NCBI GenBank assembly: GCA_026874595.1
Contig: CM049319.1
Coordinates: 61,574,917 to 61,638,916 of the forward strand
Source of the DNA: Sipunculus nudus
Lineage: Eukaryota > Annelida > Sipuncula > Golfingiida > Sipunculidae
Length of the DNA: 64,000 nt
Reading direction: 5' to 3'
The first letter of the stretch is position 1; each line of letters opens with the position of its first letter. The notes under the pieces were generated by a model. It was not told the origin of the DNA. It did no database searches and saw only the letters and a list, made by a program, of their open reading frames with translations. Positions 1,732 to 56,300 of the stretch are shown here, piece by piece. A program made the translations under genes and the position numbers.

Positions 1732-1733
<2 letters not shown>

Positions 1734-22397: not shown

Positions 22398-22411
22398 ATG
22401 CTTGGACTCAC

Positions 22412-25969: not shown

Positions 25970-27172
25970 TTTTAGCGAACCTATGAGCTTATGCGATGGT
26001 GCGGCGTCTAGACGTCTAAACACAATGTCTAGATGCAGAATTCCCAGGTTATTTGAACTATATCTTTCAACTGTTTGAAAAAACTTGGTTTGCATTTTAA
26101 GAGAATCGGGTTTATCATCAGGTCACATGTGAACTGCTGCGCCCTCATTTTTGGTTGACCTCTGACCCTTCCTCGCTGCCAAGTGTCCATTTGTGCGTCT
26201 GTTTCCACACATAAACCCACATATCTCAGGAACCGTTTGACCGATCAGGCTAAAATTTTTGCACAAATGTAGCCCTTTGATAGCTTTATAACATACACTT
26301 AAAATGGTGGTGCCACCTGCAACCACTTATGCACAGCGTCCATCTGTTCATCTGCCTTGGGATAAAATCACTCATATCTCAGAAGTGGTTTGACTTATCC
26401 ACCTGAAATTTTGCAGGTTTATACATCCTGGACAGCTTTCTAGATTTTGTGACAGGTGGCGCCACCTGCATTCAAGTTCACTCTTCAGACATCCAAGCTC
26501 ATATCTCAGGAACCGTTTGACCAATTGGGCCAAAATTTTGCATGTGTATAGATCTCACATAGCTCTTCATCATAGGCAAAACTGGTGGTGCCACCTGCAA
26601 ACCATTTATCCACAGAGTCCATCTGTTCATCTGCCTTGGGATAAAATCACTCATATCTCAGCAGAGGTTTGACTTATCCACCTGAAATTTTGCAGGTTTA
26701 TACATTCTGGACAGCTTTCTTGATTTTATGACAGGTGGCTCCACCTTCATTCAAATTTACTGTGCAGACATTCAAGCTCATATCTCAGTAACCTTTTGGC
26801 TGATTGGGCCAAAATTTTGCATGTGTATAGATCTCCCATAGCTCTTCATCATAGGCAAAACTGGTGGTGCCACCTGCAACCATTTATGCACAGCTTCCAT
26901 CTATTTATCTGCCTTGTGATAAAATCACTCATATCTCAGCAGTGGTTTGACTTATCCACCTGAAATTTTGCAGGTTTACACATCCTTGACAATTTTCTCG
27001 ATTTTATGATGGGTGGCACTACCTACATTCATGTTTACGCTGCAGACATCCATGCTAATATGCAACACACCTCACTCTATTCCCCTTGCCACTTAATCAA
27101 TGCCTCACTTCACCTGTCCCACTCTGATTTCTGTGGATACACATAGTCGCTTGTCGACTACCCAAATTCTAG
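25970..27172 (+). mobile_element. Family A tandem-repeat (pearl/Helentron-like) element, copy A1
   Basis: The copy consists of alternating related units of about 140 bp that form a roughly 280-bp period ('catatctcaggaaccgtttg', 'aaattttgca', 'ggtggtgccacctgc'). The 3' end has a hairpin TAGTCG..CGACTA followed by CTAG at 27169-27172. The 5' end here ('ttttagcgaacctatgagc') differs from the GTATCCGCC start of copies A2 and A3 and resembles 50.14 kb, so this is a mosaic or a subfamily. Tandem core units between short hairpin ends are known from bivalve pearl elements. Confidence 0.75.
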
Positions 27173-27329
27173 TTTTAAAATGTCCTAGTTTGAAACTTGC
27201 AGGTCTGAAACGTCCATTTTGCTGAAATCATAATGACTAAGGTAGAACTGCAGGACTTACAAGGATCAATATTAAATTTTAAAAATAAACCTCCATTCAT
27301 ACTCCCAAACTTTGCACAGGTTCGCATTA
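27173..27329. other. Spacer between repeats
   Basis: Low-complexity spacer. The two opposing frames across 27175-27504 extend into family G sequence and are not genes. Confidence 0.5.
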
Positions 27330-28350
27330 GTCCTGTAGGCCTTGTTTCTGAATGCAAAAGTTTCCCATCAAAACCATCCCACCACACAGTCTCAGTACCT
27401 TGTATACAGCTTTTTACATGCCTTTCATATAATGGGAGTATCATGGTAAACCCACTGTCCATCTGTTTACTTTTAGTGTTACTGCAATAACTTTTTGGGG
27501 CCACAATCGATTTTCACCAAACTCACCATAACTGCTTACCACCATATTATCTCGCCTGAGTTTGATTAACAGCAAAATCCACGCATATTTTATAAGGTCA
27601 CTAAGATAAATTATCAAGAATTAAGGAATTTGATCAAACCCATCAGAAATGTTAATCAATAAAATTTCTTGCCTAAGATCTATTTTCTGCAAAATCCATG
27701 TAATTTTGATGAATTGATCGAGGCACCATGGTGACTTAACAAAAATCCTATGGATTCTCATGAAACTCAATATACATATTTACCTTTACAGTTTTTCACC
27801 TCAATTAAATTCTCAGCAGATTTTACGCATATTTAATGAGGTCAGAGGTATTCTGATACACTAGGGCGTATTACACATGTTTGCAATGCTCTTGTTAACA
27901 TCTTCTCATGGCTCTCTGTGTTTGTAAACACAGCTAGTCCACCTGTGTCTGTTTACTATAACAAGACTGCGTGCCAGGAGGTCTGATTGTGAGCCACAGC
28001 ATGCAATGTTTCAGCCAGCAGGAACATGTATTACATTGTATTGGCCAAGTCAGTCAGGGCATGTCCTGATTGACACAAAAATGTTGACATATAGTTAAAG
28101 CAGGTAATATAATTTGCATATGTGTGGAAGTTGAGAGGTCACTAGTAAAATATAGTTATTTGAAAAACCCTGTTTCGTCTGATTGTACCAGATGACCTTG
28201 TTGAATATGTTTGGGCTATTTTGGTGGGTACCCCCATATGTTATAAACATGGGAATGTTAACAAAATGAACAATCTGTGTGCAATAAGCGTTTTCTGGCC
28301 AAACTTTATTGAAGGTTTCAGGGATTATTTTTATTTAGTATCAAGATTTG
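27330..28350. repeat. Dispersed repeat family G, copy 2
   Basis: The longest copy of the family. Parts at 27340-27420 and 27890-28080 match the window start, and 28190-28350 ('ttgaatatgtttgggctattttg', 'tttcagggatt') matches 49.8-49.99 kb. An inserted segment of about 470 bp at 27.42-27.89 kb is absent from copy 1. Confidence 0.7.
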
Positions 28351-28556
28351 AGAATAGGCCCCTTTAAGAAGTGGTTAAAGGTGGCATTCATTCAGTAATT
28401 CCTTCCACTTAATTCAGGTCAATGAATTGAGGAACAAATTAACTAACTGGAACATGGATGTTTAAACAAGCAAACTGTTGTTTCATTTAAGCAATCACAC
28501 AAGTAACATAGTGCATGTCTGATTACATATGGGCTGTTGATGCTTGAATTATAACC

Positions 28557-29420
28557 TGTTTAAAATTGTTCACCAGTTTCCAAAATTGCAATTGGGATAT
28601 TACAGGCAACACTACAAAGTCTGTATAGTTTGTATGACTTGCATAGTCATGACCAAAAAGGGGGAAATCCAGGACTTTTAGAAGTCAAGGATTTTACACT
28701 GAGTCATACCCTAAAGAAAAGATCCACAGCTTCAAGGGAAGTGTTAGCCCTGAAAATTCATAAAGACACTACCAAAAAAGTTATTTATCCTGATAAATGG
28801 GGTGCCACACTCTAGTCGCCCCACATTTCATGCCAAACTCCTTCACCAACTTCTCAGTTTGCAATTGGGATATCACAGATTACACTGCAGTATAGTTTTT
28901 ATGACTTGCATGATGATGAAAGCAAAGATCTCTGTGTCTTCATTAAAAATAAAGGTTCTTGACTGCTTGCTTGTTACTCAGACCCTCATCACAGAGTAGT
29001 TGTGATTGCTGTTGCTCTGTTGGTTGTCTGATTTCCTTTCTTGACTGCTATGCTAGGCGTTCTGGAGCTAACCTGGGAAGGCATCTTTTCTTGCAAATCT
29101 TGGCTTGGTGTGGCACCTACAGATATCTTCACAGACTTATTTTCTGTTTCTTCTGGGCCTTTACAGCATTTTGAGGCTTAAACCTGAAACAATCTATTCC
29201 TGAACTGGCTCGAGAACTGACTTTTTGTTCATTTGTGGTAACGTCTAAAACAAGGGATAAATTCAGGATTTTAGGAAGAGACAGATTTACACAAAGGGAG
29301 TAATACCCGAAAGAATGGTAAACAGGGGAGGGGTAAGCCATTAAAAATTTATTTGAGAAAACAATTCCAAAAAGGAATTTATCCTCATAAACAGGGTATC
29401 ACCAACTCTAGATCCCTGCC
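28557..29420. repeat. Diverged tandem or dispersed duplication
   Basis: 'gcaattgggatattacag' and 'tatgacttgcat' occur at about 28589-28640 and again at 28860-28912. 'ggatttta..', 'atttatcctgataaa' and 'gtgccacactcta' at 28690-28815 recur as diverged forms at 29265-29412. A stretch on the - strand at about 29180-29000 is open for about 60 codons with Ser/Thr-rich content but lacks both ATG and firm splice sites, so I do not call it an exon. Confidence 0.5.
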
Positions 29421-29587
29421 CCCTTCCATCTGTTCCTCGGGCTCTAAGAACAGATTATATCATACAGAATAAAGTTTAGCATAGCTTAGAACTGTGGTTT
29501 GCTTATTTATATGTGAGTATCTATGTTTCACGTTGACTGCAATTTATCATTGCCCAGACACAAGAGTACCTATGTCTAAAGTTACCC

Positions 29588-32165
29588 TTTTTAGCTCAGC
29601 TGACTATAAGTCATCTGAGCTATAGTCGTGGTCCATTGTCCGTTGTCCGTTTGTCTGTCTGTCCCTCCATCCGTCCGTCCGTCCGTAGATGTGGCACGTT
29701 TTGAAACCGTAAGACCTAGGAATCCAAAATTCAGCATAATGTTAGATGTCCCCAAGATCTCATACCAAGCCGAAAACTGGGTCTCTGCGACTTTGTTCCT
29801 TTGAGAAATTAAGGAAAAACCTCAATTTTTTTTTTTAAAAACCAATTTTCATAAGTGCATATCAAAACCACTCGTCTGTTTTTTTCTCATATTTACCATA
29901 AATAATCCTCTATATAGTTCTTATGTACATGCCAGAAATTAGGTCTGTATTATATAATTTAAAAAAGTTATAGGCCCAAACATAATGAACTTTGTAAAAA
30001 AATCAGGAAAGATGTTTGGTCACTTAAGACCAAAAGTGTAAAAGGTATGGACTTTTTCTCAGTAATACAACTTAAATTAATCAAAATTTAATTGTATACC
30101 AAAAATTAGAACAAAATCTTTTAAAATTTTTTAAAATATTAGCAAAAATAAAAAATTGGTACCTTAAATTTTGCCCAACTTTGACCATGGCATGTTTTTT
30201 CCCTGTAACTGCTGTGGATTTATTTTTCAAAGCATGTTTTTATGAGCATTTCAACTGTTAACACCAAAAATTTGAAACCAGTTGATCAAAAACTGTAGAT
30301 TTTATTCAAGTTTTCAAGCACCATGTCTCATATTGTTTACATCAAGCTTGTGTTATGCAGTTTGCTAGAGCTCAGCTCATGAGCTTCAGCTGTAAGTTCC
30401 TTAAATTTGGCAAACAGTTACATGTCTCCAAAATCCCCTATCATGCCAAGAATTTGGTCACTAGGACTTAATTCCTTCGAGATATTAATGAAAAACTTCA
30501 TTTTTTCCATCAAAAACCCATTGTTACACTTTAAGACTGCCTAATATCAAAACTACTGATCTGACTTTGATCATATATAATATACATATTTTCATATACA
30601 TTCGCTATGCATATGCCAGAAATGATGTCAGTATTGCGTATTTTTTTTAAGTTATGGGCCCAAACATAATGCACTTTTTAAAAAATAAAGAAATATATTT
30701 ACTCACCTAAGATGAGAATTGCTGAAGCTGGAGACTTTTTTTTCAGGAATATAACTTTATTTAATCAAGTTTCAATTGTTTACCCAAAATTTGATCTGAA
30801 TTTTGCAAAGTTATTAGCATAAATAAAAAATCAATACCGTAAATTTTGTCCAACTTTGGCAATGGCATGTTTTTTACCTGTAAGCACTGTTGATTTAATA
30901 TTCACAGCATATTTACAAAAGGATTTAATCTTTTAAAATCTGAAATTTCAAAGGAATTGATTGAAAAGAGTAGCTTTTATTCAAGTTTTCATACACCATG
31001 TCAAGTATTGTTTACATCTAGCCCACATAGTAGTACAGCCTTCACTTGCATTATGTAACCCACCCCAGGCAAGCTAGCTTGCCTTGGCTCAGCTTGGCCA
31101 TTACCAGCAGGCTTCCCCTCTGCCCTGCACCCCCCCCCCCTAGATGGTGCATTAACTAGATGAATGTTATAATTTTCTGTATTTCATTTTATTCTTGGCT
31201 ATGCAGTGCTACATTTTAGATTTTGTATTTACCACCAGGGTTACAATGATTAAAGTGCACATTTAATTGTGTCCACAAAGTGGTGTATTGCTATGAAAGT
31301 GTGGATGTTCATCAGATAAGTAATTCCTTACTTGAGAAGAGTTAAAACTTCACCAGGTGTGACATTTACTATTTATTCCAGAAAAAAAATTATAGCTTAG
31401 ATTTTAATTAGCACAATGATATTGTTTGTCCCTCATTCAACCAACAGTGTGTATACTTTATTTGAAAAGATGTTTTTATTTTACCAAATTTGCTGAATCT
31501 TTTATTTTATTTCGGTGAATAAGATTAAGCATGTACTGAAAACTCCCATGTGCAAAACTTTTTAATAGTGATTCAAGGAATAGTGATTCTTGTAGATGCC
31601 ATGTTGTGGCATTATTTTCCTATAAATTCAGTTTAAACATTTGTGATTTAAAAATAATAAAAATATATGTGTATGCATAATATGACCCAATATGAGCTAC
31701 ACTCTGGATATATAATGATTGCAACTTACATTTCTAATATTTTAACTTATATTTTCAGTTTTTTTAATACAAATTTATAAAACTTGTAATAAAAAAAAAT
31801 TAATCAGATAAAAACTATTTTAATGGAAAAAGTGGATATGCTTAAATAATAGGCTAATATATAAACTTAAATGCATTATTCCCTTGAAAGTGAAATATAG
31901 GTATTAGTCCATTCTGTCCACTGGCCTGTCCATCTGTAAATTTTTCATATGTATCACAGTATCTCAAAACTTTTACTGTTTTTCTTCATGACAGTCTTGT
32001 CAGGGTATTAGTTTGCAGTCATATATTTAGAACTTTACTATAACCAAGTGGGAGGGCCCCTTTCCTCTTAGCTTCTCATATGCTTATATAAATGAAAAAC
32101 ATTAATATTTTGCATTTGCAAAAATTTCAAACTTAAGCTGAGCGCCGTGACCCATAGGTCCCTTG
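29588..32165 (+). mobile_element. Family B tandem-repeat element, long-unit copy B1
   Basis: The start is the B hairpin 'agctcagctgactataagtc', then 'tgagctatag' and (TCCG)n-like 'ccgtccgtccgtccg'. Two diverged units of about 670 bp follow (29690-30360 and 30370-31030), sharing 'tttattcaagttttca' and 'tttgaccatggcatg'. The end is 'aagctgagcgccgtgaccc' plus 'ataggtcccttg', the B 3' end. The units differ from those of copy B2, although both ends are the same. A C-run lies at 31128-31140. Confidence 0.75.
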
Positions 32166-32883
32166 TTACTTACCAATCTCTACATTTTTTTCATTTAAAG
32201 AATGCAGCTTATCAAGTAAACTGTTCAATTTATTTAACTCAGTGCTTAAAACCAATGTAATAGGGATCTCATGGAACTGTATGAACTCAGTTGTACTTTC
32301 CACTGAGGCAAGTACCATGGTACATTCATAGATACATGCAAGAAACACAGAAAGAAAAGTCTTCTCTCAGTAAATTCAAAAGTAAATGACATTAAGTTCA
32401 CACAGGATGCTTGAAAATGAAAGAACCAAGAAACAGGCTTCATAATCCAGTATAGTTTATCAGAGGTCATCAGATACTTATCCCAGATACTTCCCTGCAT
32501 AATCAAATAAAAGTCTCAGATATCTGGATTAACTGAGTGCATATCCTGTTCAGAACATTGATCTAGAAACACTCTTTTATGGGGGAAAAGTGGGTTTATT
32601 ATACCATAATTTTAAGTTTGATGTGTATCAATTAGAAAACTGCTTGCAAGGGAATATTGTAGGCTCTGGAGTGTGTTTGGCCAATGCCCAGGGGGCCATT
32701 TGAAACAAGCATACCCTATCATGAATGGTTAAAGGGCAGTGATTGTTCTCATTTTTTTTCAAACACTATGTAATTTTTCTGTGGACAGTCAGTGCAATGA
32801 ATTAAAGAGAGATAACAATCAATAAATGAATAAGGAATGAGATAACTTTTCAATAAAAAAAATCAATTCAAAAGAATTTCCAT
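32166..32883. other. Spacer
   Basis: No gene was recognised. The overlapping - strand frames at 32166-32506 show no domain. Confidence 0.5.
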
Positions 32884-33290
32884 CTTAGCTGACTTTTGGT
32901 CATGCTGAGCTATAGTGATCACTCTTAGACCAACATCTGGCCGCCTCTACCAGCTGTTTGTTAAGTTCTCAGCTATGCTTTCACTGATCCAGTGTCCACT
33001 TCATATGTTCATTGATCCTCACTAGTTTCATCAGTTCCAGAAGACTGGTGGTATCACTTGTATTAATCTTTAGCCCAGCTAACTTTCATGCAGTCATGCT
33101 GTGCTGTTGCGGTCATCCATTTGTCAGCCTGCCATCTTGCCAGTCATAAGTAGGGCACAAATTGGAGAAATTTGACCTAGAAACTTCATGTTTGATCAGT
33201 CTTCTCATAGATCCCAGGAAAATCTGCTAAGAAACTAGGTCACCGTGGCCTAAATTCTGTGAGCTACACAGCAAAAACATGTTTCTAAGC
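32884..33290 (+). mobile_element. Degenerate family B 5' ends
   Basis: 'ttagctgacttttggtcatg' plus 'ctgagctatagtgatcactc' at 32886 and a second, more decayed hairpin near 33070 are followed by a B unit ('gggcacaaatt', 'gacctagaaacttc'). No 3' end is seen. Confidence 0.6.
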
Positions 33291-34505
33291 ATCATTAATG
33301 TTTTACTCCTTTAAGTGTTTGAAGCAGTGCACATTTTTCCCTCAGAGTTGTTACAAAATTCTTTTCAATTTTTATCTCATATTAGCTTGTAAACTTGTCA
33401 ACTTTATCAGGGGGGGGGGGAATTTACCAAAATATAGGCATGTTAACCCCATAACTTTTAAACAATGCATAATTTTCCCCTTAAATTTGATACACAATTC
33501 CATTCAACAATTTTCAGTTCCCTTTGACCTTGATCATCAGTGTCATATCCACAGCTATTGTTTTTTCCATCAATTTTTGGGATGGGAGGATGTGTAGCAG
33601 GTTTTTCCGGGGGGGGGGGGGGGGTGGTATATTTAGGGGGTTGTTTGACCTTACTTATGTTTAGTCTAACAGATTATCAAAGGAGATAGAAGGCACAATA
33701 AGGGAGTGAATTTTTCCCCTTGTTCAATTTACCAGAGGGTCAAATTATTTAAGTTTGTGTAGCCATATTACAAAACATAGCAAATATTAAGTACTGTTGT
33801 CAGAGATTTTTTTTAGAGGATTTGGGGGCTAATCTTGATTCGGAAGACAGGAGACTCTGCTTTATTTACCTGTTAAAGTCAAACTGCATTGTATTTTGCT
33901 GAACCTCTGAGGGTGTTCACTTGATCTTTCATACATGTTAGACATTGTATGAAGAATAAACATGTGTTGTATTACCCTTGGACCTTGGACTTTTACTGTG
34001 TTTAAAACACAGAGAAAAATACCCAGAAAATAAGTGAATGTGAGAATTTTGTGATACCACATTATTTTTGTGTATTACTGGGATGTTAATATTTAACCAA
34101 TCAAATATAATTTCACAGACACATACTAGACTGTATTAAAATGAATATAATTCCTTTTCAAAATTCTGATTTGATTTCATATTTTCAATGCAGCAGCATT
34201 GGATGAATTAAGCTGGGTAATTAAATTAATTGCTACAAAAATGTTAGTTTTACCACTTAGCTTGAGTCATTTCTACAGAATGTCAAACATTATTTTAATG
34301 GTGATGTCCAGTTAGTAATTAAGGTATGTGTAATTTAAAGTTCTACTTGTAAATGTCAATGAATGTTACATAAAGTTACCCCAAACTTTGATGATTCTAT
34401 GATGAAATACAAATCACTTTAATTATTTTAATAATAATTATTCCTATGAGAAAGCTCAATATTAATTAACAATAAAACAAAATTTTAATATTCTAGATAT
34501 ATATA
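33291..34505. other. Spacer with G-runs and repeat pieces
   Basis: G-runs lie at 33409-33420 and 33610-33625. 'catgttaaccccataac' at 33440 matches 43690, a shared repeat unit. No exon was recognised on either strand. Confidence 0.5.
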
Positions 34506-34690
34506 TGTCGTGGCCCAGATTAGAATTTTGATCTGGGCCAGACTAGATTACAATTGAAACTTGTCCAGCCAACCCAGGTTTAAACCGGACTGAACCAGTT
34601 TAAAATCCTGTGGTGGAGATTTTATGACTGAATTCTGGTCTGACCAGATTTAAAACTTGGCCAGCCAAGATTAGAACCTTAATCTCCCCT
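34506..34690. repeat. Short-motif repeat (CCAGATTTAAAA type), copy 2
   Basis: The same word set as 1440-1656 occurs here: 'gatctgggcca', 'ccagtttaaaat', 'gaccagatttaaaac', 'ggccagcc'. It is next to an AT dinucleotide stretch, as in copy 1. Confidence 0.7.
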
Positions 34691-34943
34691 TGACTGGCTG
34701 ATTGGTATAGTAATAGATTATCTTGAATTCTATCATAGAGTCTGAATATAATCTATTTGCACCATTTATTATATCATAAAAACTTGGAACAGATGCAAGA
34801 ATATAAATAAAAAGTTTATATAATATGGGACGCTTTATCAAAAAGTTAAAAGGGACAATGGCTCAGTTATATCACAAATACCATCACAAAATGTGTGTTA
34901 TTGTTGATTTATTCATTCATTAAGCCCAGATAATTACAAATAA

Positions 34944-34944
34944 C

Positions 34945-34985
<41 letters not shown>

Positions 34986-34990
34986 AAAAA
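34944..34990. repeat. (GA)n microsatellite
   Basis: An interrupted GA/GAAA run of about 45 bases. Confidence 0.9.
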
Positions 34991-35043
34991 ACTGAAGTTT
35001 AGTGGCTAGCCTTACTAAGAAGTTTTGTGAAAAATATAAGTAA

Positions 35044-35381
35044 GGCCAAAATAAAAAAAAAGGTATGGTTCTCAGGCACTTTTTTTCAGAAATCAATGCG
35101 GGCGGTCGCTTTTTTTATTTTAAATTTTTTGGTATGTTTCGATAAAAATGTCAAATGATAAGGGAAAAGCATGAAAATAACAGTTTTATTTTGCTAAATA
35201 AGTAAAAGCACTACAAAACAAAGGAAATTGTATGGTTTAACTTCTTGAAAGAAATGTCGGAGCGGCAGCAGCTGAAAAATTGGATATTTTTTATTGAAAA
35301 TCAAAATAAAAATTTTTGATGCGGGGGTTTAAAATTGATGCGGGCGGTGCCTGAGAACCATACCTTTAATTTTTTTTGGCC
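35044..35381. mobile_element. PIF/Harbinger-type MITE, copy 2
   Basis: A 338-bp element has GGCCAAA and 'ggtatggttctcaggcac' at the left and the complement at the right, flanked by TAA on both sides (35041-35043, 35382-35384). The interior is the reverse complement of copy 1 ('atgcgggcgg' blocks have swapped sides), so it is inserted in the opposite orientation. Confidence 0.9.
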
Positions 35382-35384
35382 TAA

Positions 35385-36368
35385 TATGTAAATATTTCAT
35401 TTAATAATACACTGCACATCTAGAATGACAGGAATGCTTTGACAATTAAGTTTATTCTTCTGTATCATCTATAGATTCAGTAGTGATAAAAGGTACATCC
35501 TATTCCATTAAATGATGCTACAAGATAAATAACCCCACCCTGCATGGCTGAAAAGAATACTTGAGGATTCCAGCCTCGGTTATTCAAAACCCATTACTTG
35601 AGTCATAAAGCAGGGGTTTAGTACTAATGTGCTATTTTCATATCATAGTGTCCAGGCTTGTCAAGTGCCCACATCACATATGTATAACATTTTAGAAAAA
35701 AAGAACAAGGCTAGCATAAAAACCTTCTGTGCATATATTTGTCTTTTTGATTATATTCTTTTGGATAGAGTGTTGATAGTGGCAAATGTGTTTAATTGAG
35801 TTTGAGTCCGAATAAATAACTTTCTTATCCAAAAGGTTGAAGGGGGGCAGGGGATTATGTGTGGAAGGGAGACCCCCTCCACCAACCCTGCCCTTACTAT
35901 CTCGTCTTTCAGATGATATTAAATAATGATAAAAAAATTTTAAATATAAAAAGTTAAATGTTTTGATTTAACATTAAGGAAACACAAATGACAAGAATAT
36001 TAATTTTCACCAAAGGTTCTTTGAAATGTTCTTGTTTAAAAAAATTTAAACTCATTAAAAGGCACACAGATATATTCAATAGTCAAGTTAAACTTCAGGC
36101 TGTTCCTTCCTTCAAAATAAAAATGAGCCAAGTGGGCCCCTTCAGAATCAGCCATTCCTACCAGATTTGTCATGGGCTCCTCCCCCTGGGACAGTGGCCA
36201 GTATCTAGTCCTGTCCGGTCCAGAAGATGGCCATATATTTTTATGTACTGTCTGAGAGGTTTTAAGTGTTCTGTGGTTCAAACCACATCCTGGTTACAGG
36301 AGTTTGTGCTAAGTGTCGTATCACAGCAGTTCATTTTCTTGACAGGAATTAATTAAAAGTTACAACTA
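35385..36368. other. Spacer
   Basis: No firm gene was found. Opposing frames at 35988-36356 (+) and 36036-36281 (-) have no recognised domain. The (-) frame is open for 81 codons but lacks splice support. Confidence 0.45.
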
Positions 36369-37689: not shown

Positions 37690-38502
37690 CAAATCTCGGA
37701 TGTTGTCAAAATGTATTAAGAGTCAAATATATAATTACCAAAGAATTTAAGTTTGACTCTTGGACCTAGAATCTTCTAACTTGACATCCAGGTTTGTCCA
37801 TGAAAAAAATCTCCTTGGCAACCTGAAATTAGTTCTCTGTTACCCCTATTCTCTGAGCTGTGGAGCTCATAAGTACCCCCGAATAATTAAAAATTTGATA
37901 TAAAAGCTCCAGTATCTGAATAAATAATGAATATATAGCCATGATTCTTTGCATGCATATTAATTATGGAGTGTTTATTCATTTCCTGAAGACTGGTGGT
38001 TCCACCTGTGTTTATTCCAATTTTTACACATGTTTGCCTCTATTTTTGAGACCTCCAAAGAAGTGGTCGTCCAGTAACAGGGCACAAGTGGTAACTGTTG
38101 GACCTATAGAATCTTCTAACATGTAATCCTGCAAGGTCTTAGACAAACCTCCTTGAAACCTGAAATTAGGTCATTGTAACCTATATTCTGCATGATATGT
38201 AAAAGAACATGATTTGAGCACCGTATCAGACAGATTTGCATGATTGGTTACAGCAGGACCTAGAAACTTCTAATTTGATTAATATCACTTTCTTAGAAAC
38301 CAGAAATAATGTCACTGTGACCTATAATCTGCAAGTTGTGTGAGAGAACATGACTTAACACACTATTAGTCAGATGGGCACAAATGGTAGCAGCTGGATG
38401 TAGAATAACTTCACTGTAACCTATATCTATGGTCTATTGGCAAAATGCATGATTTCATGCAAAGAATTCAGCTGAGCACCATGGCCCATGGGCCACTTGT
38501 TT
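37690..38502 (+). mobile_element. Family B element, 5'-truncated copy
   Basis: Units carry 'aatctccttggcaacctgaaattag', split over 37808-37832, and 'ctggtggttccacctg' (37993). The end is 'cagctgagcaccatggccc' plus 'atgggccacttg' (38469-38500). No 5' hairpin is visible. Confidence 0.75.
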
Positions 38503-41500: not shown

Positions 41501-42432
41501 CTGGGTTGTCCAGCAATGACATCACAGTGTAATATACTAATAAGTGTTTCCAGCATATGGTTGCCATGGTAACACACAGGGCCCCACCATCTTGATTATT
41601 ATTATCCTTTTAATTAGTTTGAAACTTACTTGTTCATAAAAAAACAATTAATTACTCTTCATATATTATTTTTATTGATCAACTGGAGAAGTTTATTGTT
41701 TGTGGTGTTACAGGAATAGCCACATGCAATGAAAGTAATGTATCCAGTTTGTGAAATACAAACATATTGATGCTTAATAACACTTCATTGCAGCAATCAA
41801 ACTTTTAAGTTTTAAACATCAGATCAGATGGTCTCTATTTGGTCATACAATTCATTTGGGAAATTAATTTGTGCACATATCTGGAACTTATTAGTGAATT
41901 TTTGTACCTTAATTGGTCCGTGGGATATTAGTAATGAGATTCTGATCTCAGATTAGCTCTTAGCTAATTAACACACCTGTGTCACAGATCATGTCATTAG
42001 GTCCAAACTGAGGTACAATTGGAGCAGCTGGTTAATTTGTACATAATTTTTTCAATAAAACAGTATCAGTTATACTTAAAATGTCTAGAAAATTGAAAGG
42101 GTAGAGGATACTATTGAGAGTGTAACAATTCAGACTTGTCAAAGAGAAACATTCTGAATGTGATGTATATGTGTGTGTAGTTACAGCTACGCATTTACGG
42201 TGTTAAAGTCTATACATTTTAATAAAAAGATAAAGCTCATTGCATCATTGCTAATTCTGTCTAATTATCTATGAATAACGATGCTACATTAATTGATCCT
42301 TTAAATTAGAAACATGCATTGAATTTAACATTGGTTCATGATTTCAAAATTTATTTTATTATTTTAGTTTTAATTGCTATTTGCAACATAAATGCATGTT
42401 GTGTCCTGTTGGCGTTTAGCTGATGTTGATCA
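38503..42432. other. Long spacer without a recognised gene
   Basis: Read on both strands. Inverted CCAAT boxes ('tgattggtca', 'tgattggcta') lie at about 38976 and 39012. A possible decayed tRNA-like B box ('ggtccctggtttaaacctc') is at about 40950. A C-run lies at 41305-41315 and a G-run at 41464-41475. The frame at 39678-39941 has no domain or splice support. Confidence 0.45.
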
Positions 42433-42911
42433 GTGATGTTGGAATCTGACTTTGACTCGAGGGTCCTGGACTCTGACTTTGACTCGAGGGTCCTGGACTC
42501 TGACTTTGATTTGAGGGGTCGGGACTCTGACCTTTGACTTGAGGGTCCTGGACTCTTGACTTATACTGGAGGGGCCTGGACTCTGACTTTGACTCCAGGG
42601 TCCTGGACTCTGACTTTGATTTGAGGGGCCGTGACTCTGACCTTTGACTTGAGGGTCCTGGACTCTGACTTGGACTGGAGGGGCCTGGACTGTGACTTCG
42701 ACTTGAGGGTCCTGGACTCTGACTTTGACTCAAGGGTCCTGGAGTCTGACTTTGACTTGATCGTCCTGGACTCTGACTTTGACAGTAGTGTTCGGGACTC
42801 TGACTTGGACTTGAGGGTCTGGACTCTGACTTTGACTTGGGGGTCCTGGACTCTGACCTTTGACTCGAGGGTCCTGGACTTTGACTTGGCTGGAGGGTCC
42901 TAGACTCTGAC
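42433..42911. repeat. 27-bp minisatellite
   Basis: About 17-18 copies of a 27-base unit (GGGTCCTGGACTCTGACTTTG plus ACTCGA-like) are present. Because 27 is nine codons, both strands stay open: a 9-residue Ser/Pro/Gln repeat on the - strand and an Asp/Leu repeat on the + strand. There is no start context, splice site or codon-level conservation beyond the repeat, so I do not call it a gene. Confidence 0.95.
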
Positions 42912-43659
42912 AACTAAACTACTAAAATGGTAAGGGGAAAGATGCTGGTAATTGGTAGAGTGATCGGTCAAGGTGTTTTGGACCAAAACCCCAGGTGCAC
43001 TCTAGTGGAGTCTCAGTAGGCCTTAAAATAAGGTTCATTTTAGAGGAGAAAATACAAATGAAGACCTTTAGACAATTCACAGAGCTGTCAGTATGGATGT
43101 AAAATTTGTTTTTGTTGTAAATACTGGTTGCATGACTTTGAGGTTGGATATGACAGACTGTGGAATAAGCACTGTCTGTCTCTCCAGGAGGAAGCGTGTA
43201 GCTAGTGATTTTGTCTCTGAATTAAATCCAGATTTGACATCAAAAGACAACATTTAAGATACAATCTTAAGGTGTTACACTGCCACGCGCCATTAAGCGG
43301 TTGTATAAAAAAGTAAAGCAATAAAGATTAGATAAGATGCATTCAAACCAGAGAGATATATACTACCACCATAAAAGATGAGTCAGCTGCATGTGCCAAG
43401 TTATATGCTGTGGTTAACAGGACCATAAATGATCTATTTGCTGGTGCAGCTTATATGCATGGTTGTATAATAGTGCTCCATTTGAAAAAAAATCTACGTA
43501 GAAAAAATCCTCGGACAAACAAAAATGGACAAAATCTCTTTTAGTTGTAAAAGTCAAGCCACTTCCATTCCTTTCCAATTTAAGTATTAGTTACCAAGTA
43601 AAAATAAGTAATATTCGTCTATATAAACATAGTGTAGGGAGTTCCTTTTGAAACGCTGA
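42912..43659. other. Spacer
   Basis: No gene recognised. Confidence 0.5.

Positions 43660-45790: not shown

Positions 45791-45794
<4 letters not shown>
44471..45794. other. Spacer with a GATA-type module
   Basis: The module at 45061-45115 reads 'aatctgataagataa', then 'ttatctgatcgagg', then 'cgaagaaaaag'. Related copies lie at 48632-48690 and 61469-61530. A (TA) stretch lies near 44686. The - strand frame at 44944-45201 covers the module and is not a recognised protein. Confidence 0.55.

Positions 45795-45842
<48 letters not shown>
45795..45842. repeat. (TA)n microsatellite
   Basis: About 24 TA repeats. Confidence 0.95.
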
Positions 45843-45845
<3 letters not shown>

Positions 45846-46460
45846 ACCTGAATAGCAAGGGGATAATTACATTGACCAACCCCCATTGCTAAAAAGTTGG
45901 GTTGATATATACCCTTCATCCCTTCTGATAGATTTCCCTGGTGTTACAGAATGCTATAACATGAACACTGATGTGACAGTTCAACAACCCTATTCTGGGC
46001 CACCTCCAGAAACACACCAGGTAACATCTATGAATGACCCTGTTATTTTGAATAGCTGTATGTCATGATGGGAGGGTGTCCTGTGAATGGAAACTGAACA
46101 AATTTTATTGTGAATCAGAATACCTCTAAAATTTAATGGATTGTTTCTTGGATGTTATCTTGACCCTCCAAACAATTCCAGCAAACACTTTTCAATACTT
46201 TCGCATAAATTTACTGACTGACAAACCTGGAGGGTAAAGTGTAATAACTCTCACCAGCCAGCAGAATTATTATTATGTGTCAGGTGGCAGGAGGTATTGT
46301 TTTATAATTAGTTATTTGGTTTGTCAGTCAACAAATCCATGACAGATATTTATTGAAATATTGTGTTTTGGGAAGCTGGGGGGGGGGGGGGGTTGAGTAA
46401 CACCAAAGGAACAACCCATTTAGATTTAGAAGTAATCTGGATCGCCATCATGTATTTTTT
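45843..46460. other. Spacer
   Basis: No gene recognised. A G-run lies at 46379-46392, just upstream of family C. Confidence 0.5.
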
Positions 46461-47791
46461 ATGCCCCCGCCACAAAGTGACCGGGGCATATAGTTTTACC
46501 CATGTCCGTCATTCCGTCATTCCGAAATGAAACAGTTGACTTTTTTTCGCAATGCCTGCAGATATTGGCCTGATTTTTGGTGTGTGGGCAGATAATGACC
46601 AGTTACAGATCAAGTTCGCGTTTCGTCCCAGTTGACCTACTTTTGACCGTTTTATGGCTCCTTTACATAGAAAATTTCATGAAAAATATTAATTTTCATG
46701 ACAAATGTACATGTACAGCCATTTTAAGCCCTCAGCTCATAGGCTCATGGGCTATTGTCGTCACCCAAGCTGTCCGTCTGTCCGTCCGTCCATCTGTCTG
46801 TCCGGTGTCCGTCAGTCCATCTGTTCCGCGTCTGTTAACTTTTACCTTGTGAGCTGGATATCTCTAAAAGGATTCACCGTTGGAATTTTATTTCATCAGT
46901 GAAGATGTATATCGATAAAATCTCGGCCAAGTTTGAAGATGGGTGACCTTGACCCATTTTTCTACATTTTAGAGCTGATTATAGAAAAACACTCAGAAGC
47001 TTATATCTCAGGAACCATTGTGTGGATTTTCACAAAACTTACTATAATCATTGGGTCTGATGGTCTGAACGTGCTGCACAATTTTGGTAGCGCCACCTGC
47101 AATTTCTGATTTTTTAATGAAATTTTTTCGGATTTTTCAATTTTGGCCTTTTGTGCAGGATATCTCCAAAGGAATTCAATACAGGAACTTCATTTCTTCA
47201 GTGCTATTGCATTATATTTACAAAATCTTGGTCAAGTTCAAAGATGGGTGATCTTGACCTACTTTTCAAGGTCACAGAGCTTAGTATAGAAAAATACTTA
47301 GGAGCTTATTTCTCAGGAAGCATTTGATGGATTGTTATGAAACATGGTACATACCTCTCCAATTTAAATTTATAACTGATTATCAGCTTTTGCTAATATT
47401 CTAGTTTTGCAATGCAATGCTTACAGATACTGGCCTAATGTTTGGTCTGTGTGCGCATAATGACCACTCACAGATCGAGTTCGCATTTTGTCCCAGTTAA
47501 CCTATTTTTGACCATATGACAGATCCTGAACATAGAAAATTTCATGAAAGACAGAAATTTCTACGAAAAATGCACATGTATGGACTTTTTTTCACAATGC
47601 CTGCAGATTCTGGCCTGATTTTTGGTGTGTTGCTTGATAATGACCCATTACAGATCGAGTTTGCATTTTGCCCCTGTTGACCTACTTTTTACCATACAAC
47701 ACCTCCTGAACTTAAAAAAAATTTACAAAATTTAACAAATGTTTCTCATTTGCCCCAGGCGGAGGCATTCGTGTCATTCCGACACATCTAG
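46461..47791 (+). mobile_element. Family C hairpin-ended repeat element
   Basis: The 5' hairpin has arms ATGCCCC..GGGGCAT (46461-46489), followed by 'ccgtcattccgtcattccg'. Units of about 200 bp carry 'aatgcctgcagat' and 'ttttggtgtgtg'. The 3' end has hairpin GTGTC..GACAC at 47771-47785, then 'atCTAG' at 47788-47791. A hairpin just upstream of CTAG is the 3' architecture of Helitron-type elements. A family D element is nested inside. Confidence 0.8.
46725..47404 (+). mobile_element. Family D element nested in family C
   Basis: It starts 'aagccctcagctcatagg' plus 'ctcatgggctattg', then a (TCCG)n-like tract. Internal units resemble family A ('tatctcaggaaccat', 'gcgccacctgc'). It ends 'gctaatattCTAG'. 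Family C sequence resumes directly after it ('tttgcaatgc'), so the insertion sits between T residues. Confidence 0.75.
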
Positions 47792-50138
47792 TTTTTCATT
47801 ATAAAGCTTTCTTTCCATTGTTACCTACAGGTGTTACTTTTTGTGTCTGTTGATGTCTGGGGATTTTCAAAAGTATAACAAACAGTAATGACAGCAGAGT
47901 GTCCTGACCCATGGTTTAAGTGGTAGGAGTTCATAATGATTTCATTATCAGTCATTGATTTGCATAAACCAATCTGTGATCATTAATGATCAGTTAAGCT
48001 ATATACATAAGTGTATTTGATTAACTGTAAAATTAGTTGGAGAGTTCTAAAGTAGTATCCATATTTTCCTTTTTATATGTCAAACAAATTCCGTACTAAT
48101 TTTCTGGAGCATATATATCCTCAAGTTAACTGGTCACAGTTTACAGGTGAATGTCTTAAAAATTCATGGATAGGGGTTATTTTAAGGCTGAATCCACACA
48201 TTTTTAATGAGGTCAGATGTCAAGTGGCTACTTTGTGGTGACATCCTAAAACTTTATGCCAGAGCTGTTTACAAATAGAGTTCTGCTCTATGTAAAAATA
48301 TACAAATTCTCAAAAGGTTTTACACATTTTGAACAAATTTTTTGAATAATTTACTCTAATTAAAAAACACTCCTGATTGAGTAGACTATAAGGACAATGA
48401 TTTAAACAAAGTGGATTCCTTTTATCAGAAGGTTTTACAGCTAGGGTATTAGTCCATGTATCTAGGGTTTGAACCCTGTCAGAAAAAGATACATTGAACC
48501 CTCTTAGCACTCCCATAAATCTTTGAACTCATGAATAATTCATTGGATGGACAAAGTGTGGTGTTGTTGTAATGATGAGTGTGTAAGAGTCAAATACATC
48601 AGCACTTCCTTCCTGTGATCGACCAGACAAGGTTTGTTATCTGATAAGATAGTCACGTTATCTGATCAAGGACGCGTGCAGAAAAAGTTACACAGACCAG
48701 ACTGGAGATGCAGGCATCACTGTATACTCCTTGTTAACCTTCACTATTTAGCTAATAAAACTTATATAAGTTCAAGGAATGTGATGATCATGTAGTTGTG
48801 CACCTTTATGTAAAATGTAACATCTAATTACTATGGAGTTTTCCTTCGTGGTAACATCACTTTTATTTAAGATATAATGATAAAATATTAATATAATATG
48901 ATTGATATCATGTGTTTGTATAAATTAAGAAATATGCTGAGTTTTTATTTTTTTTTCTCAAATTAAAACTAGCAATATAATACCTGATAATTAGGGTCTC
49001 GTACACTCCTATATATATATGGACATATTTTTGACTTAGTCTTTTGATAAAATTAAATGAATAACTTTTATAAAATTATGAGTTATATTAAAAATAATGT
49101 AGAACATGTATAAAAAGGTGAGATATTTTAAAATATCAAAGAAAAATCAATTAGTTATGTTCATATTAAAATCTTTAAATACATCTATGCTTTTGTCTAT
49201 TTATTTATCTTATTACCTTACATACAGATTTCATATGAAAATTATATTAATTAATTACACTGAGACACTGAAACAGGTAAACAAATTTTGAGACAACATG
49301 ATAAAAAATGAATGAAATATGTAAAGACTATAGGTTTTACTCAAACATTCTTCTCACAGAATTAAAATTCTTGAAATATTTTCATTCTTATTGAAACCTT
49401 GAAAGTGCATGAATTGAGCCAATTTTAAAATTTCCTTGAAAGACCTTAAAATTTACTCCAGCTGCTTGGTTTATGGCAGAGTAGTATAAAAGATCTTGTT
49501 ATTTTTGTAAAATATACTGATAACCAAAAATGATGAACAAAATAAAAAAAAATCCAATCCATGTCATTGAAAAGCTTTTTCCTTGAAAATGTTAAAGCTG
49601 GCTATTCATTTACATTTTCTGTAGAAGTTATGTGATTTCTGGCTTACTTTGTGTGCTGTGATGGATGTATGAACTTGTTTATCTCCACATTGTTAGTAAA
49701 CATGGTACATTAGCCAGTGTTGACAAACAGAAAACCATGTAACATGAGGTGGTTGGTTGAATTTGTGTTGAAGTTGGTTACTCGCTGCAAAATGACATAT
49801 GTCTGACTTGCCACCAGGTGTCCCTGTTGAATATGTTTTGACTATTTTGGTGGGTTCTTTGCAAGTTATAGATGCAAGTATACAAACAAATTGAACAGCC
49901 TGCATGCTGTGGGTTCATTGTTTTCTTACCTTTTTAAAAAAACAGGTTCTAGGGATTGTCTTTATTATATAGATATCATATATCAGATTAGCCTCCTTTA
50001 AGGTAATCTACTCACTGACTGAATGAAATACAGTGAGTAAATTTATGCATCGGTCCAGTATTCCTGCAGACAGATTTGGTTTTTTTGCATTGTAGAACTC
50101 TAGAATGCTTGCTGATCTTGTACTATTTAGGATTCCTT
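47792..50138. other. Spacer with GATA module and family G copy 3
   Basis: Read on both strands with no gene recognised. The GATA-type module lies at 48632-48690. A tRNA-like B box ('agggtttgaaccctgtc') lies at 48463-48480. A family G fragment lies at about 49690-49995 ('ttgaatatgttttgactattttg'). Confidence 0.5.
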
Positions 50139-51345
50139 TTTAGCAAACCTGTGAGCTTATGCAATGGCATAATCTGCTGTTGTCTGTACTTTAACCCATG
50201 CTATTTAAAAAATGGTAGGAGCTAGCTTCACCAAATTTTATGCAAAAAAATCAGTCATATTAAAAATTCTATAGGATTTTGCTTATTTTTTTGCTATCTA
50301 CATTACTTAGATTTTATAGAGAAAAAGCTAAAAAATCTTCAAAAATTTTCTTAACATAAACTGTCCAGCAAAATTCTTTAGTAATTCACAGAAATAATCT
50401 CTGAAACAATCTCTCTCAAGTTTGTTTGAATGGTTTCAGTTTATCAAATTTTGGCCTAGTTAAAGGAAGCTGAATTAAGTCATTTGGCCAAAAATTACAG
50501 TCTAAGAAACAGCTGGACCTATCATCACCAAATTTATGCAAATGATGGTCACATGACTCATATTTGATATTGAGGTATTGATGGCACCACCTGCATCAGC
50601 CTTTTTTGTACGAGGGACATCTGTTATTAGCACATTAACTCATAATTTTTCAGGAACAGCAGGAGCTAGGATCCCTAAATTTTATGCAAATACCTGTCAC
50701 ATATCAAATGTTGTGGAATCAAGCTTTTTGTGGTGCCACCTGCATCACTTTTTTTTTGAATGGGGGAAAAAAGCAAGAAAAACCTTTGAAAATCTTCTTC
50801 TCTGAATTCATTCAGCCAAATTGTTTAAATATTTTAAGAAAATAAATGATCCCAGTGACGAGCTCTCTCAGTCCTGAGCTAGCATCATCATGTTTTGTTC
50901 AAATGTTGGTCTCATGACTCACATTTGAAATTGCATTTTTTTGGCAACACCTTCATAGACCTGTTTTAAAAAATTAGATCTGTATTTTGCAATATTTTCA
51001 AGTTATTAGCATAAATATAAAATCAGTTCCTTAAATTTTGCCTAACTTTGTCCACGGCACGTTTTTTTCCTGTAAGAACTGTGGATTTAATTTTCACAGC
51101 ATGTACACATAAGGATTTAATCTGTTAAAATCTGAAATTTGAAAAAGCTGCAAAATTAGGCTAGTTATTGATTTTTTTGGAGGCTCTTGTATTTCCTCAC
51201 ATTGTCAAGCAGTCCACTTTGGTCACTGTAGGTCATTCAGTGCAGCTCTCTATGCTCCCTGGGCTGTTATATGTAAACCCATCACTCAGGCAAACCCTCT
51301 CTCTTGTTGAGCTTGATTAGGCTGTCTGCAGTTAATACCAGAAGG
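50139..51345 (+). mobile_element. Hairpin-started tandem-repeat element, another subfamily
   Basis: It starts 'ttttagcaaacctgtgagc' plus 'ttatgcaatgg', like copy A1. Units carry 'caaattttatgcaaa' and 'ggcaccacctgcatc' (50580) or 'ggtgccacctgcatc' (50735). The segment 50990-51180 matches the long B1 unit. No CTAG end was found. A C-run of about 20 lies at 51356-51376 after it. Confidence 0.6.
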
Positions 51346-51429
51346 AGCCTTTTTCTCCCCCCCCCCCCCCCCCCCCCGCCCCCCTATTCTGTTTACAGAC
51401 CTTTACTTTAAATAAGGAATCTTATAATT

Positions 51430-52884
51430 GTATCCGCCAAAACAGTTTTGCGGATACTATGTTTTCAGCCGGACACCACCGCCGCCGCCACGGAGGTGTC
51501 CGGAGAACTCCTCCGTAACTGCTGAGTGGAATTTTAAGAAACCCTGGATTAAGTTCAGGTCACATGTGGACTGCTGCCCTCCTATTTTGTTTTGACCTCT
51601 GACCTTTCCTCTGTGCTCTGCGTCCATCCATGAGTCAGTAATGACACATTAACCCACATATCTCAGGAATCGTTGGACCGATCCAGAAAAAAATTTTGCA
51701 CAAATGTAGCCCTTGGATAGCTTTATAACATGCATAAAAAATGGTGGCACCACCTGTAACCATTTTTGCATGGTGTCCATCTTTTCATCTGCCTGGGGAT
51801 AAAATCACTCATATCTCTGCATTGGTTGGACTTGTCCACCTGAAATGTTGCATGTGTATACATCCTGGACAGCTTTTATGACAGGTTTTGATTTTATGAC
51901 AGGTGGCGCCACCTACATTCACGTTTACGCTGCAGACATCCAAGCTCATATCTCGGGAACCATTTGACCGATTAGGCCAAAATTTTGCATGTGTATAGAT
52001 CTCACATAGCTCTTTAACATACGCAAAACTGGTGGCGCCACCTGCAACCATTTTTGCACAGCGTCCGTCTGTTTCTCGTCGTGGGATAAAATCACTCATA
52101 TCTCTGCACTGGTTTGACTTGTCTGCCTAAAATTTTGCATGTTTATACATCTTGGATAGCTTTCTGGATTTTGTGGCAGGTGGCCTAAACCTACATTTAT
52201 GTTTATGCTGCAGACATCCAGGCTTATATCTCGGGAACCATTTGACTGATTGGGCCAAAATTTTGCATGTGTATAGATCTCACACAGCTCTTTATCATAC
52301 ACAAAACTGGTGGCACCACCTGCATCCATTTTTTGCACAGCGTCCGTCTGTTTGTCTGCAGTGGGATAAAATCACTCATATCTCTGCACTGGTTTGACTT
52401 ATCTGCCTAAAATTTTGCAGGTTTATTCATCTTGGATAGCTTTCTTGATTTTATGACAGGTGGCGCCACCTACATTCACATTTACCCTGCAGACATCCAA
52501 GCTCATATCTCAGGAACCGTTTGGCCCATTGGGCCAAAATTTTGCATGTGTATAGATCTCACATAGCTCTTTATCATAAGCAAAACTGGTGGCGCCACCT
52601 GCAACAATTTTTGCACAGGGTCCATCTGTTTGTCTGCCGTGGGATAAAATTACTCATATCTAGGCAGTGGTTTGACTTTTTGCATTTGTATACAACTTTG
52701 GTAGCTTTCTGGATTTTGTGGTAGGTGGCACAACCTACATACACATTTTGGCTGCAGACATCCATGCTAATATGTAACACATCTCACTCTATTTCCCCTT
52801 GTTATCAATCCATGCCTCACTTCACCCGTCTCACTCTGATTTCGGCAGATACACATAGTCGCTTGTCAACTACCTGTATTCTAG
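51430..52884 (+). mobile_element. Family A element, copy A2 (complete)
   Basis: The 5' hairpin starts TATCCGCCAAAAC and closes GTTTTGCGGATA (51431-51456). Tandem units of about 140 bp alternate into a 280-bp period, each with 'ggtggcgccacctg' or close variants (51746, 51902, 52030, 52310, 52458, 52588). The 3' hairpin (TAGT..ACTA) is followed by CTAG at 52881-52884. The - strand frames across 51809-52780 are periodic shadows of the repeat. Confidence 0.85.
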
Positions 52885-53352
52885 TTTCACTTTTTTCTTC
52901 AGCAACAAGCAGTAAGAACAGAGACCCCTTCCCCGACCCGTCCCTTCAATACAAAGGACTTATAAACTACAAATCTTATCATTTTCATGTTTAATAAATT
53001 CTTTTTGTTGAGACTTGGACTATTTTGATTTTTTTAAGAATAAAATGTTCAGGAATTTGATCCTAAAATTCAAATGTGATAAAACATTAGGATCTAATGT
53101 AAGTGCTAACTGACAAGATTTAAGAAGATATCAATATTTTGTAGCATTTCATTCATATCTCTTATAGTTGGCTGGGCCTAGGTTAGAATAACACTGTTAA
53201 ACTTAGTTTTAAAATATGGAATATTGGTCAAACTTTGTGGGATTAATTTCTAACTCATATGGCCATATATTTAACTTTTGAAAACTAAATTACCTTCACA
53301 CATTATTTGTTTATGAAATGTAACTTTTATATTACGCTTACTGCAGGCCCAT
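52885..53352. other. Spacer
   Basis: No gene recognised. Confidence 0.5.
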
Positions 53353-56300
53353 TTTTAGCTCAGCTGACTGAAAGTCATCTGAGCTATAGCGATCACTCTT
53401 TGTCCGTCGTCCGTCTGTCCGTCTGTCCGTCTGTCCGTCTGTCCGTCCGTTAACCAGGCACAAATCGTAACCGCTGGACCTAGAACCTTGTAACTTGGGA
53501 TTCTGAGAGGTCCATAAAAAATCTCCTTGGAAACCAGAAATTAGGTCTCTGTTACCCATATCCTTCGAGCTATGTGGCCCCAAAGTACCCCCCAGAAAAG
53601 TCAAAAATTTCATACAAAAACTTCAATATCTCATTAACTACTTGACTGATGGTCATGATTTTTGGCATACATATTGATCATGAGATGTTACATCACTTCC
53701 TGCAGACTGGTGGCGCCACCTGTATTTTTCGATTTTTTACGAATTTTTTTCTCTATTTTTGAGACCTTAAAAAATGTGAACATCTGTTAACAAGGCACAA
53801 ATCATAAAGACTGGACTTAGAATCTTAATTCTTGACACACTGAGAGGTCCATGAAAAATCTCCTTGGAAACCAGAAATTAGGTCTCTGTTACCCATATCC
53901 TTCGAGCTATGGGGCCCCAAAGTACCCCCCAGAATAGTAAAAAATTTCATACAAAAACTTCAATATTTCAATAACTACATCACTGATGGTCTTCATTTTT
54001 GGCATACATATTGATCATGAGATGTTCGATCAGTTCCTGCAGACTGGTGGCGCCACCTGTACTGTTTGATTTTTTACGATTTTTTCCTCTATTTTTGAGA
54101 CCTTTGAGGATGCTGTCATCTGTTAGCGTGGCACAAATCGTAACGACTGGACCTAGAATCTTCATTTTCGACACACTGAGAGACTTATGAAAAGTCTCCA
54201 TGGAAACCAGAAATAAGGTCTCTGTTACCCATAACCTTCGAGCTATGGGGCCCAAAATTACCCACCAGAATAGTCAAAAATTTCATACAAAAACTTCAAT
54301 ATCTCATTAACTACATCACTGATGGTCATGATTTTCGACATACATATTGATCATGAGATGTTTCATCAGTTTGTGCAGACTGGTGGCGCCACCTGTATTT
54401 TTCAATGTTCACGAATTGTTTTCTCCATTTTTGAGACCTTTAAGGATGTAGTTATCTGTCAACAGGGTACAAATCGTAACGACTGGACCTAGAATCTTCG
54501 TTCTTGACACACAGGGAGACCCATGATAAGTCTCCATGGAAACCTGAAATTTGGTCTCTGTTACCCATATCCTTCGAGCTATGGCACTCCAAAGTACAGC
54601 TCAGAATAATGGAAAATTTGATTCAAAAGCTAAAGTATCTGAACAACTAATGCAGAGATAACCATAATTGTTTGCATGGATATTGATCATGGAGTGTTTC
54701 ATAAGTTTCTGCAGACTGGTGGCACCACCTGTATTTGTTCATTTTTTTTTACGAAATTTTTCTGTATTTTTGAGACCTTTAAAGATATGAACATCTGTTA
54801 ACAGGGCACAAATCATAAAAACTGGACCAAGAATCTTCATTCTTGACACACAGGGAGACCCATGAAAAGTCTCCATGGAAACTTGAAATTAGGTCTCTGT
54901 TACCCATATTCTTTAAGCTGTATGGGTCCAAAATACCCCCCCCCCCCCCCCAGAATAATGGAAAATTTGATACAAAAACTGCAGTATTTCAATAACTACA
55001 ACACTGATGGTCATGATTTTCGGCATACATATTGATCATGAGCTGTTCCATCAGTTTCTGCAGACTGGGTGTGCCACCTCTGTTTTTTTTCAAAATTTTA
55101 CGAATTTTTTTCTTTTTTTTGAGACCTTTAAAGATGTGGTTATCTGTCAACAGGGTACAAATCGCAACAACTGGACCTAGAATCTTCATTCTTGTCATGC
55201 AAGGAGGCCCATGAAAGGTGCCTGTGGAAACTTGAAATTAGGTCTCTGTTACCCATATCCTTCAAGCTATAGGACTCCGAAGTATCCCTCAGAATAATGG
55301 ACAATTTGATACAAAAACTGAAGTATCTGAACAACTAATGCAGAGATCACCATGATTTTTTGCATGGATATTGACCATTAAGTGTTTTTATTAGTTTCTG
55401 CAGACTGGTGGAGCCACCTGTATATTTGTATCCGCCAAAACGAAGTTTTGCGGATACTATGTTTTTGACCGAGTTCCTCCACCGCAGCGGCGTTCGTTTC
55501 CAGAGAGCTCCTCGGAGACTAATGGACCGATTTTTCCCAAACTTACACCTATTATCGGGTCACATGTGAACTGGTGCCTAACCAATTTGCGTTGACCTCT
55601 GACCTTTCCTCTCTATCCAGTGTCCATTTGTGGGTCTGTTTCCACTCATAAACCCTCATATCTCGGGAACCGTTTGACCGATCAGGAAATAAAATTGATA
55701 CAAATGTAGCCCTTGGATTGCTTTATAACATACACAAAAAATGGTGGCGCCACCTGTAACCATGTTTGCACAGTGTCCATCTGTTCATCTGCCTTGGGTT
55801 AAAATCACTCATATCTCTGCAGTGAATTGACTAATTCACCTGAAATTCGTCATGCGTATACATCCAGAATAGCTTTCTTGATTTTATGACAGGTGGCGCC
55901 ACCTACGTTCACGTTCACGCTGATGACATCCAAGCTTATATCTTGGGAACCGTTTGACCGATCAGGAAATAAAATTTATACAAATGTAGCCCTTTGATAG
56001 CTCTGTAACATACACAAAAAATGGTGGCGCCACCTGTAACAATGTTTGCACAGCGTCTGTCTGTTAGTCTGCCATGGCCTAAAATCACTCATTTCTCTGT
56101 AGTGGTTCGACATAACTGCCTAAAATTTTGCAGGTTTATACATCGTGGACAGCTTTCTTGATTTTATGACAGGTGGCACCACCTACATTCTAGTTAACGC
56201 TGCACACATTCAAGCTCATATCTCAGGAACCATTTGACCGATTGGGCCAAAATTTTGCATGTGTTTAGATCTCACATAGGTCTTTATCATACACAAAACT

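Follow-up and report, generated by a model that had tools for sequence, protein, structure and literature searches.

Satellite-bearing HINEs, which are non-autonomous Helentrons, are established in oysters, according to three reports (PMC7492417; PMC8268682; PMC11136912). In a 64,000-nucleotide window of the Sipunculus nudus genome (C14:61574917-61638916 of the searched genome), copies of a 12-letter palindrome, GGTGGCGCCACC (hereafter the word), sit mostly in short tandem arrays within dispersed elements designated A, D, S and B. The word-bearing units are the central repeats of HINE-like elements, and the word is tentatively read, with a probability of about 0.45, as the core of the repeat module in HINE arrays and a putative protein-binding site that would act during copying, with intact-site lineages spreading. 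The element class is known, and conserved motifs and palindromes in such monomers have already been published.

Cg_HINE of Crassostrea gigas (PMC7492417) shares with element S a left subterminal repeat accompanied by an inverted repeat, a GTCC-type microsatellite and a satellite-like array, together with a subterminal repeat and a palindrome at the right. The same source describes T-rich insertion and several families, some with common monomers; the monomers measure 138-181 bp, against 336 bp for the repeats of S, and their conserved segments are given as boxed parts of a figure, with no such word spelled out in the portion available. DINE-1 and the mite HINEs (PMC4067079) likewise possess subterminal inverted repeats, a 3' stem-loop and central repeats, and are described as using TT-rich targets without target duplication; unlike the present elements they belong to another animal group, and no conserved central-repeat word was met in the accessible part of that report. 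Among bivalve satellites, DTC84 and phBglII400 have monomers with a conserved palindrome, while BIV160 and Cg170 have two conserved motifs, as stated in a further study (PMC5139131); by description they resemble the word-bearing modules. The word itself was not found in the repeat literature searched, its one occurrence being in a paper on a bacterial chitinase; the shorter form GGCGCCACC was absent from the 8 of 222 papers that were listed. Matches were lacking for two patterns among viral contigs, and for one pattern among prokaryote contigs.

The word and the elements that carry it

The word is real and strongly over-represented. Its recurrence, first noticed in a sequence-only reading of the window, is borne out by 11 exact copies (Table 1) against none in 100 dinucleotide shuffles, and by 22 copies with at most one mismatch (the exact ones included) against 0 expected from shuffles; A/T-only words aside, the only recurring perfect 12-bp palindromes in the window are GGTGGCGCCACC (11) and GACCCATGGGTC (3). 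Across the genome (1.43 Gb, 153 contigs) the 16-mer CAGGTGGCGCCACCTG occurs at 4,777 places and its reversed control at 0. In the window and 20 further loci (L005-L024, being 20 of the 36 stretches grouped from the listed CAGGTGGCGCCACCTG matches), 183 words with at most one mismatch were counted, 122 of them exact. The weakest place of the word is its centre CpG (CG 13, CA 8, TG 5 and other 6 among 32 aligned window copies, that is, 33 minus one with a shifted centre), and AGGTGGNNCCACCT is proposed as the pattern for counting by centre.

The particulars of the sequence-only reading fared unevenly. All its quoted positions were right within 3 bases, although 54045, 54385 and 55744 were off by 1-3 (54046, 54382 and 55743). 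Its statement that the word often lies inside CAGGTGGCGCCACCTG needs correction for the window: this 16-mer abounds in the genome as a whole, but only the copy at 26455 among the 33 aligned window copies has it. One word per unit is correct for the 336-bp unit, but in A, D and B the ~279-bp unit is a dimer carrying two words, spaced mostly 149 and 129-131 bp apart; and the 50.1-kb element, named as a further carrier, has no exact or one-mismatch copy, merely the two two-mismatch forms listed in Table 1.

The HINE-like anatomy can be followed along element S, whose left end has a subterminal repeat and an extra inverted repeat (53356-53386), succeeded by the GTCC-type microsatellite TGTCCGTC (53401-53447) ahead of a 336-bp satellite-like array (53449-55427), and whose right end has a 3' subterminal repeat (56749-56758) and the palindrome GACCCATGGGTC (56764-56775), which folds, yet no better than shuffles (z -0.47). 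Element B is inserted in the final 336-bp unit of S, shortly past the word of that unit. Compared with the window copy (53353-56784), a second S+B composite in L020 (C1 ~6.93 Mb, 292-3590) is 97.9% identical over 3,203 aligned positions, with its two ends identical and its flanks different; the composite thus moved as a unit. The T-ended borders are alike in both copies, and by eye there is no target-site duplication. The L020 copy is without about 195 bp near the array start.

In element A, a 5' end resembling that of the 50.1-kb element is joined through an a/b dimer array to a 3' end resembling those of D and B, with a stem-loop, TAGTCG-CTTGT-CGACTA, at 27144-27160; this structure folds well in A alone, and in D it is decayed. 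Element D starts with the 5' inverted repeats GTATCCGCCAAA/TTTTGCGGATAC (51427-51460) and holds an additional unit near 52180 with a rebuilt centre. Left inverted repeats are clear in both D and B, and a right-hand repeat was found by pattern in B. The ends of D, of B and of the F3 elements of other loci differ from those of S; several HINE-like families with different ends carry the module in their central arrays. A further palindrome, TCACATGTGA, is common to A, D and B in their left flanks, 5' of the first unit (26100-26115, 51555-51570 and 55558-55573). As a source of the word, a terminal palindrome of the element was considered and, for the families examined, rejected: A, S and F3 each end in a 3' palindrome that, by reading, differs from the word and from those of the other two.

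Common descent of the repeat modules

The sequence-only reading had taken the units around the word to be otherwise unrelated, and had named descent from one ancestral unit as a finding that would refute its interpretation. Such descent is what emerged: upstream sequence, with the word excluded, connects 12 representatives of all families seen, which over ~83 bp join into a single network whose register is set by the word, each link being reached by at most 1 of 2,000 shuffles in register-bound alignments. At or below the 5% level are 39 of the 66 pairs of representatives. The deeper links escaped gapped alignments with free end gaps but emerged in the register-bound ones. For the consensus of family a2 and that of S, 46 of the 97 upstream positions outside the word are identical in the word register, against a null mean of 0.31; this identity was reached by 1 of 20,000 shuffles, and no register shifted by up to 8 exceeds 0.37.

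Furthermore, models built from the upstream part alone, whether from A, D and B or from S, find each other's units as well as single modules elsewhere. Outside their own arrays, 6 of 10 matches with E <= 0.05 carry the word (up to 2 mismatches) near its expected place, as against 0.5% of random segments carrying it within 2 mismatches at that place. An upstream match above 5 bits was absent for 8 of the 183 words in the window and the 20 loci, some of these lying too close to a locus end. These alignments show that the modules share one descent, with the register of the word fixed. Convergence on the word by unrelated units was considered as a candidate and is ruled out by the upstream-only models and the register-tied upstream similarity. 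The word is shared among the families because their units descend in common, a warning against taking a palindrome in repeats of different appearance as a mark of unrelated families. Common descent does not, however, account for the word's extra conservation.

Conservation of the word and its possible cause

Between six groups of window copies, a comparison set selected mainly by the word, conservation among 12-mers is highest at the word (identity 0.78, or 0.82 when shifted by one, against 0.46 upstream). Over the full set of 26 window array units, non-CpG changes amount to 8/292 for the word compared with 187/2078 for the upstream part (p = 9e-5), with one other 13-column stretch, which overlaps the word, tying with it. 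The upstream models collected 218 units from the window and the 20 loci, and in the 192 that are left once the 26 with the exact 16-mer are excluded, non-CpG changes affect 122/2104 sites of the word (5.8%), 1916/15652 upstream (12.2%) and 466/4098 downstream (11.4%). The other outcome named as refuting the earlier reading, a word as changeable as its neighbours, did not arise: in these upstream-collected units it has about half their non-CpG changes. It is among the slowest parts of these repeats, except in family a2, where there is no slowing. Elsewhere the change rates of word and upstream part are 0.059 and 0.159 in b, 0.024 and 0.053 in a1, 0.067 and 0.132 in F3, and 0.075 and 0.200 in S; among 13-column windows the word ranks 1st in b, 2nd in F3 and 6th in S.

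A further matter is the level at which this conservation acts. One half of the upstream columns served to bin the unit pairs, and the other half to measure them. Going from the closest to the most divergent pairs, the ratio of word to upstream change ran 1.01, 1.07, 0.81, 0.70, 0.54, 0.56 and 0.53, and on G/C sites alone 1.09, 0.84, 0.56 and 0.53. With 21 loci resampled, recent pairs give 0.84 (0.53-1.23) at 0-5% and 1.08 (0.85-1.38) at 5-12%, and deep pairs 0.49 (0.36-0.77) at 12-20% and 0.47 (0.35-0.60) above 20%; of the 62 mismatches that separate the two S+B copies, 2 lie within 156 word bases. With a recent ratio near 1 and a deep ratio near one half, resident copies decay like their surroundings, while spreading lineages hold the word. 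The pattern fits selection on spreading lineages, and not on resident copies kept one by one for the host, and hints that the word is slowed as an element-level signal would be.

These ratios also bear on the unlikely alternative that the word has no function and is merely inherited, its apparent slowness stemming from a low mutation rate, gene conversion or copy sampling. The absence of slowing in recent copies, and throughout family a2, agrees with it, as does a sampling of copies that leaned on the word; however, a low mutation rate should slow recent pairs too, and does not, and the trend persists on G/C sites alone and among units collected solely through their upstream part.

The module consists of the blocks TATCTCaGgAAc ... 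AAATTTtGCATg ... ATaGATCatgg ... ACTGGTGGCGCCACCTGyA, with the word as conserved core. Its slow positions are GGTGG and C-ACCT, flanking a freely changing centre; one perfect CAGGTGG arm is retained in 26 of the 33 window copies, and YAGGTGG stands on at least one strand in 167 of the 218 units. Under the preferred reading, the word would be a site for a protein, whether host-encoded or supplied by the autonomous partner, that works during copying of the element and recruits or enhances transposition, replication or transcription; lineages retaining several intact sites would spread, and inserted copies would be free to decay.

A freely changing centre would also suit the loop of a hairpin. 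If the palindrome folded in single-stranded rolling-circle intermediates, it could pause synthesis, promote template switching and thereby create and keep the arrays, and many copies do have a perfect dyad whose two arms are, within families, about equally slow. There is precedent in the conserved palindrome of DTC84 near the repeat junction and in the phBglII400 junctions at a 12-bp palindrome (PMC5139131). One unit of D, moreover, has a short duplication of TTTTATGACAGGT (51885-51905), just 5' of the word at 51902 and with its break within the left arm, which resembles a local template switch. Against such a replication signal, in 12 representatives only the word itself pairs, with no covariation (0 of 4 pairs with a compensatory change); diverged copies break the arm pairs, 3-5 of 7 being left in E, X47, X57 and the copy at 22954; single-strand folds around 5 word copies gave one z of -2.57, by way of pairs leaving the dyad, and otherwise -1.08 to +1.11; and the array ends seen fall, by eye, about 40-60 bp beyond the word. 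No RNA family in the window reached the gathering threshold. Because compensating changes are lacking and arm pairs are broken in diverged copies, a protein-binding site is preferred over a hairpin, which is unlikely. Among the three causes that the sequence-only reading had offered, a bound protein is thus favoured, a replication signal is possible, and recombination between families is unneeded and not shown.

The arm appears to resemble a CTCF core and a Snail/ZEB-type E-box. A host architectural or repressor site, in which a CTCF-like or Snail/ZEB-like factor would recognise CAGGTGG and the elements would plant tandem sites genome-wide, is quite improbable: YAGGTGG is indeed kept on some strand in most of the collected units, and the arm reads like part of the CTCF or E-box sites that transposons carry, but the central C expected of a CTCF core is among the least kept positions here, and resident copies are neither slowed nor constrained. 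On the side of the host, CTCF has been described in most bilaterians examined, and oyster CTCF is among the proteins studied, as one report states (PMC7021899).

Several points weigh against the reading of the word as a putative binding site used in propagation. At least 143 Helitron_like_N matches exist in the genome. A search of 20 of these loci (about 3.5 kb apiece) and of four stretches flanking two of the loci, which stop short of the element ends, turned up no autonomous element bearing the word; within the same limits the word was absent at up to 2 mismatches, as were the S or D ends, bar one F3-like decamer. In addition, 27 of the 66 pairs of representatives do not reach significance at 5%; the 26-unit test in the window becomes weak once CpG sites are included (20/338 vs 196/2118, p = 0.049); family a2 is reversed (word 0.083, upstream 0.059); and in a1 (rank 37) and a2 (rank 72) the word falls well short of being the slowest window. 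The module models were seeded with word-bearing copies, which leaves a bias, and the 20 loci were picked for the exact 16-mer and all come from a single chromosome, within its first 8.5 Mb. Helitron-like genes whose open frames exceed 2,200 codons, for example at C11:50385293-50385904 (-) and C8:80139053-80139664 (+), are possible autonomous partners.

A more far-reaching version makes the word a multi-copy recognition site inside the elements, through which one propagation machinery or one host factor would serve HINE families with entirely different ends; it is unlikely. If true, copying success would be set by the central repeats and not by the termini alone, which would explain why the elements carry satellite arrays. 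The results also bear on why tandem arrays are so frequent in non-autonomous Helentrons and why short motifs persist in mollusc satellites while monomers diverge, and the word offers a probe of defined sequence, 12-16 bp long, for pull-down and mobility assays.

Feature coordinates and other observations in the window

Table 1. Word-bearing elements and modules of the window (window coordinates; mismatches are counted against the word)
Feature	Position	Strand	Details
Element A	25969..27175, ends approximate	+	from self-comparison, terminal motifs and 3'-end fold
Words in A	26306..27023	+	exact: 26455; one mismatch: 26306, 26584, 26734, 26863; two: 27012
Isolated module	47086..47097	+	one-mismatch word; upstream part from about 46998
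50.1-kb element, two modules	50580..50740	+	two-mismatch words at 50580, 50729
Element D	51428..52887, ends approximate	+	a/b dimer array
Words in D	51743..52735	+	exact: 51902, 52031, 52459, 52588; one mismatch: 51743, 52309; two: 52724
Element S	53353..56784	+	HINE-like; B nested inside
Words in S	53709..55418	+	exact: 53709, 54046, 54382; one mismatch: 54718, 55407; three: 55067
Element B	55425..56606, ends approximate	+	ends same as those of D
Words in B	55743..56460	+	exact: 55743, 55892, 56023; one mismatch: 56172; two: 56449; decayed near 56301
Three diverged modules	57342..57728	+	words at 57424, 57717 decayed; 57567 with two mismatches
Single S-type module	37907..38006	+	two-mismatch word at 37995
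Single S-type module	22954..23060	-	two-mismatch word at 22954

Other repeats of the window include a further tandem array at 62022-62757, with 145/302-bp periods, whose unit contains GGCCACCA and no word, and a 27-bp minisatellite at 42416-42913 with a minus-strand open frame of 165 codons made of serine/proline-rich repeats. An open frame at 22331-22714 (-) matches the RGM C-terminal domain (E 1e-6) and is probably an exon.

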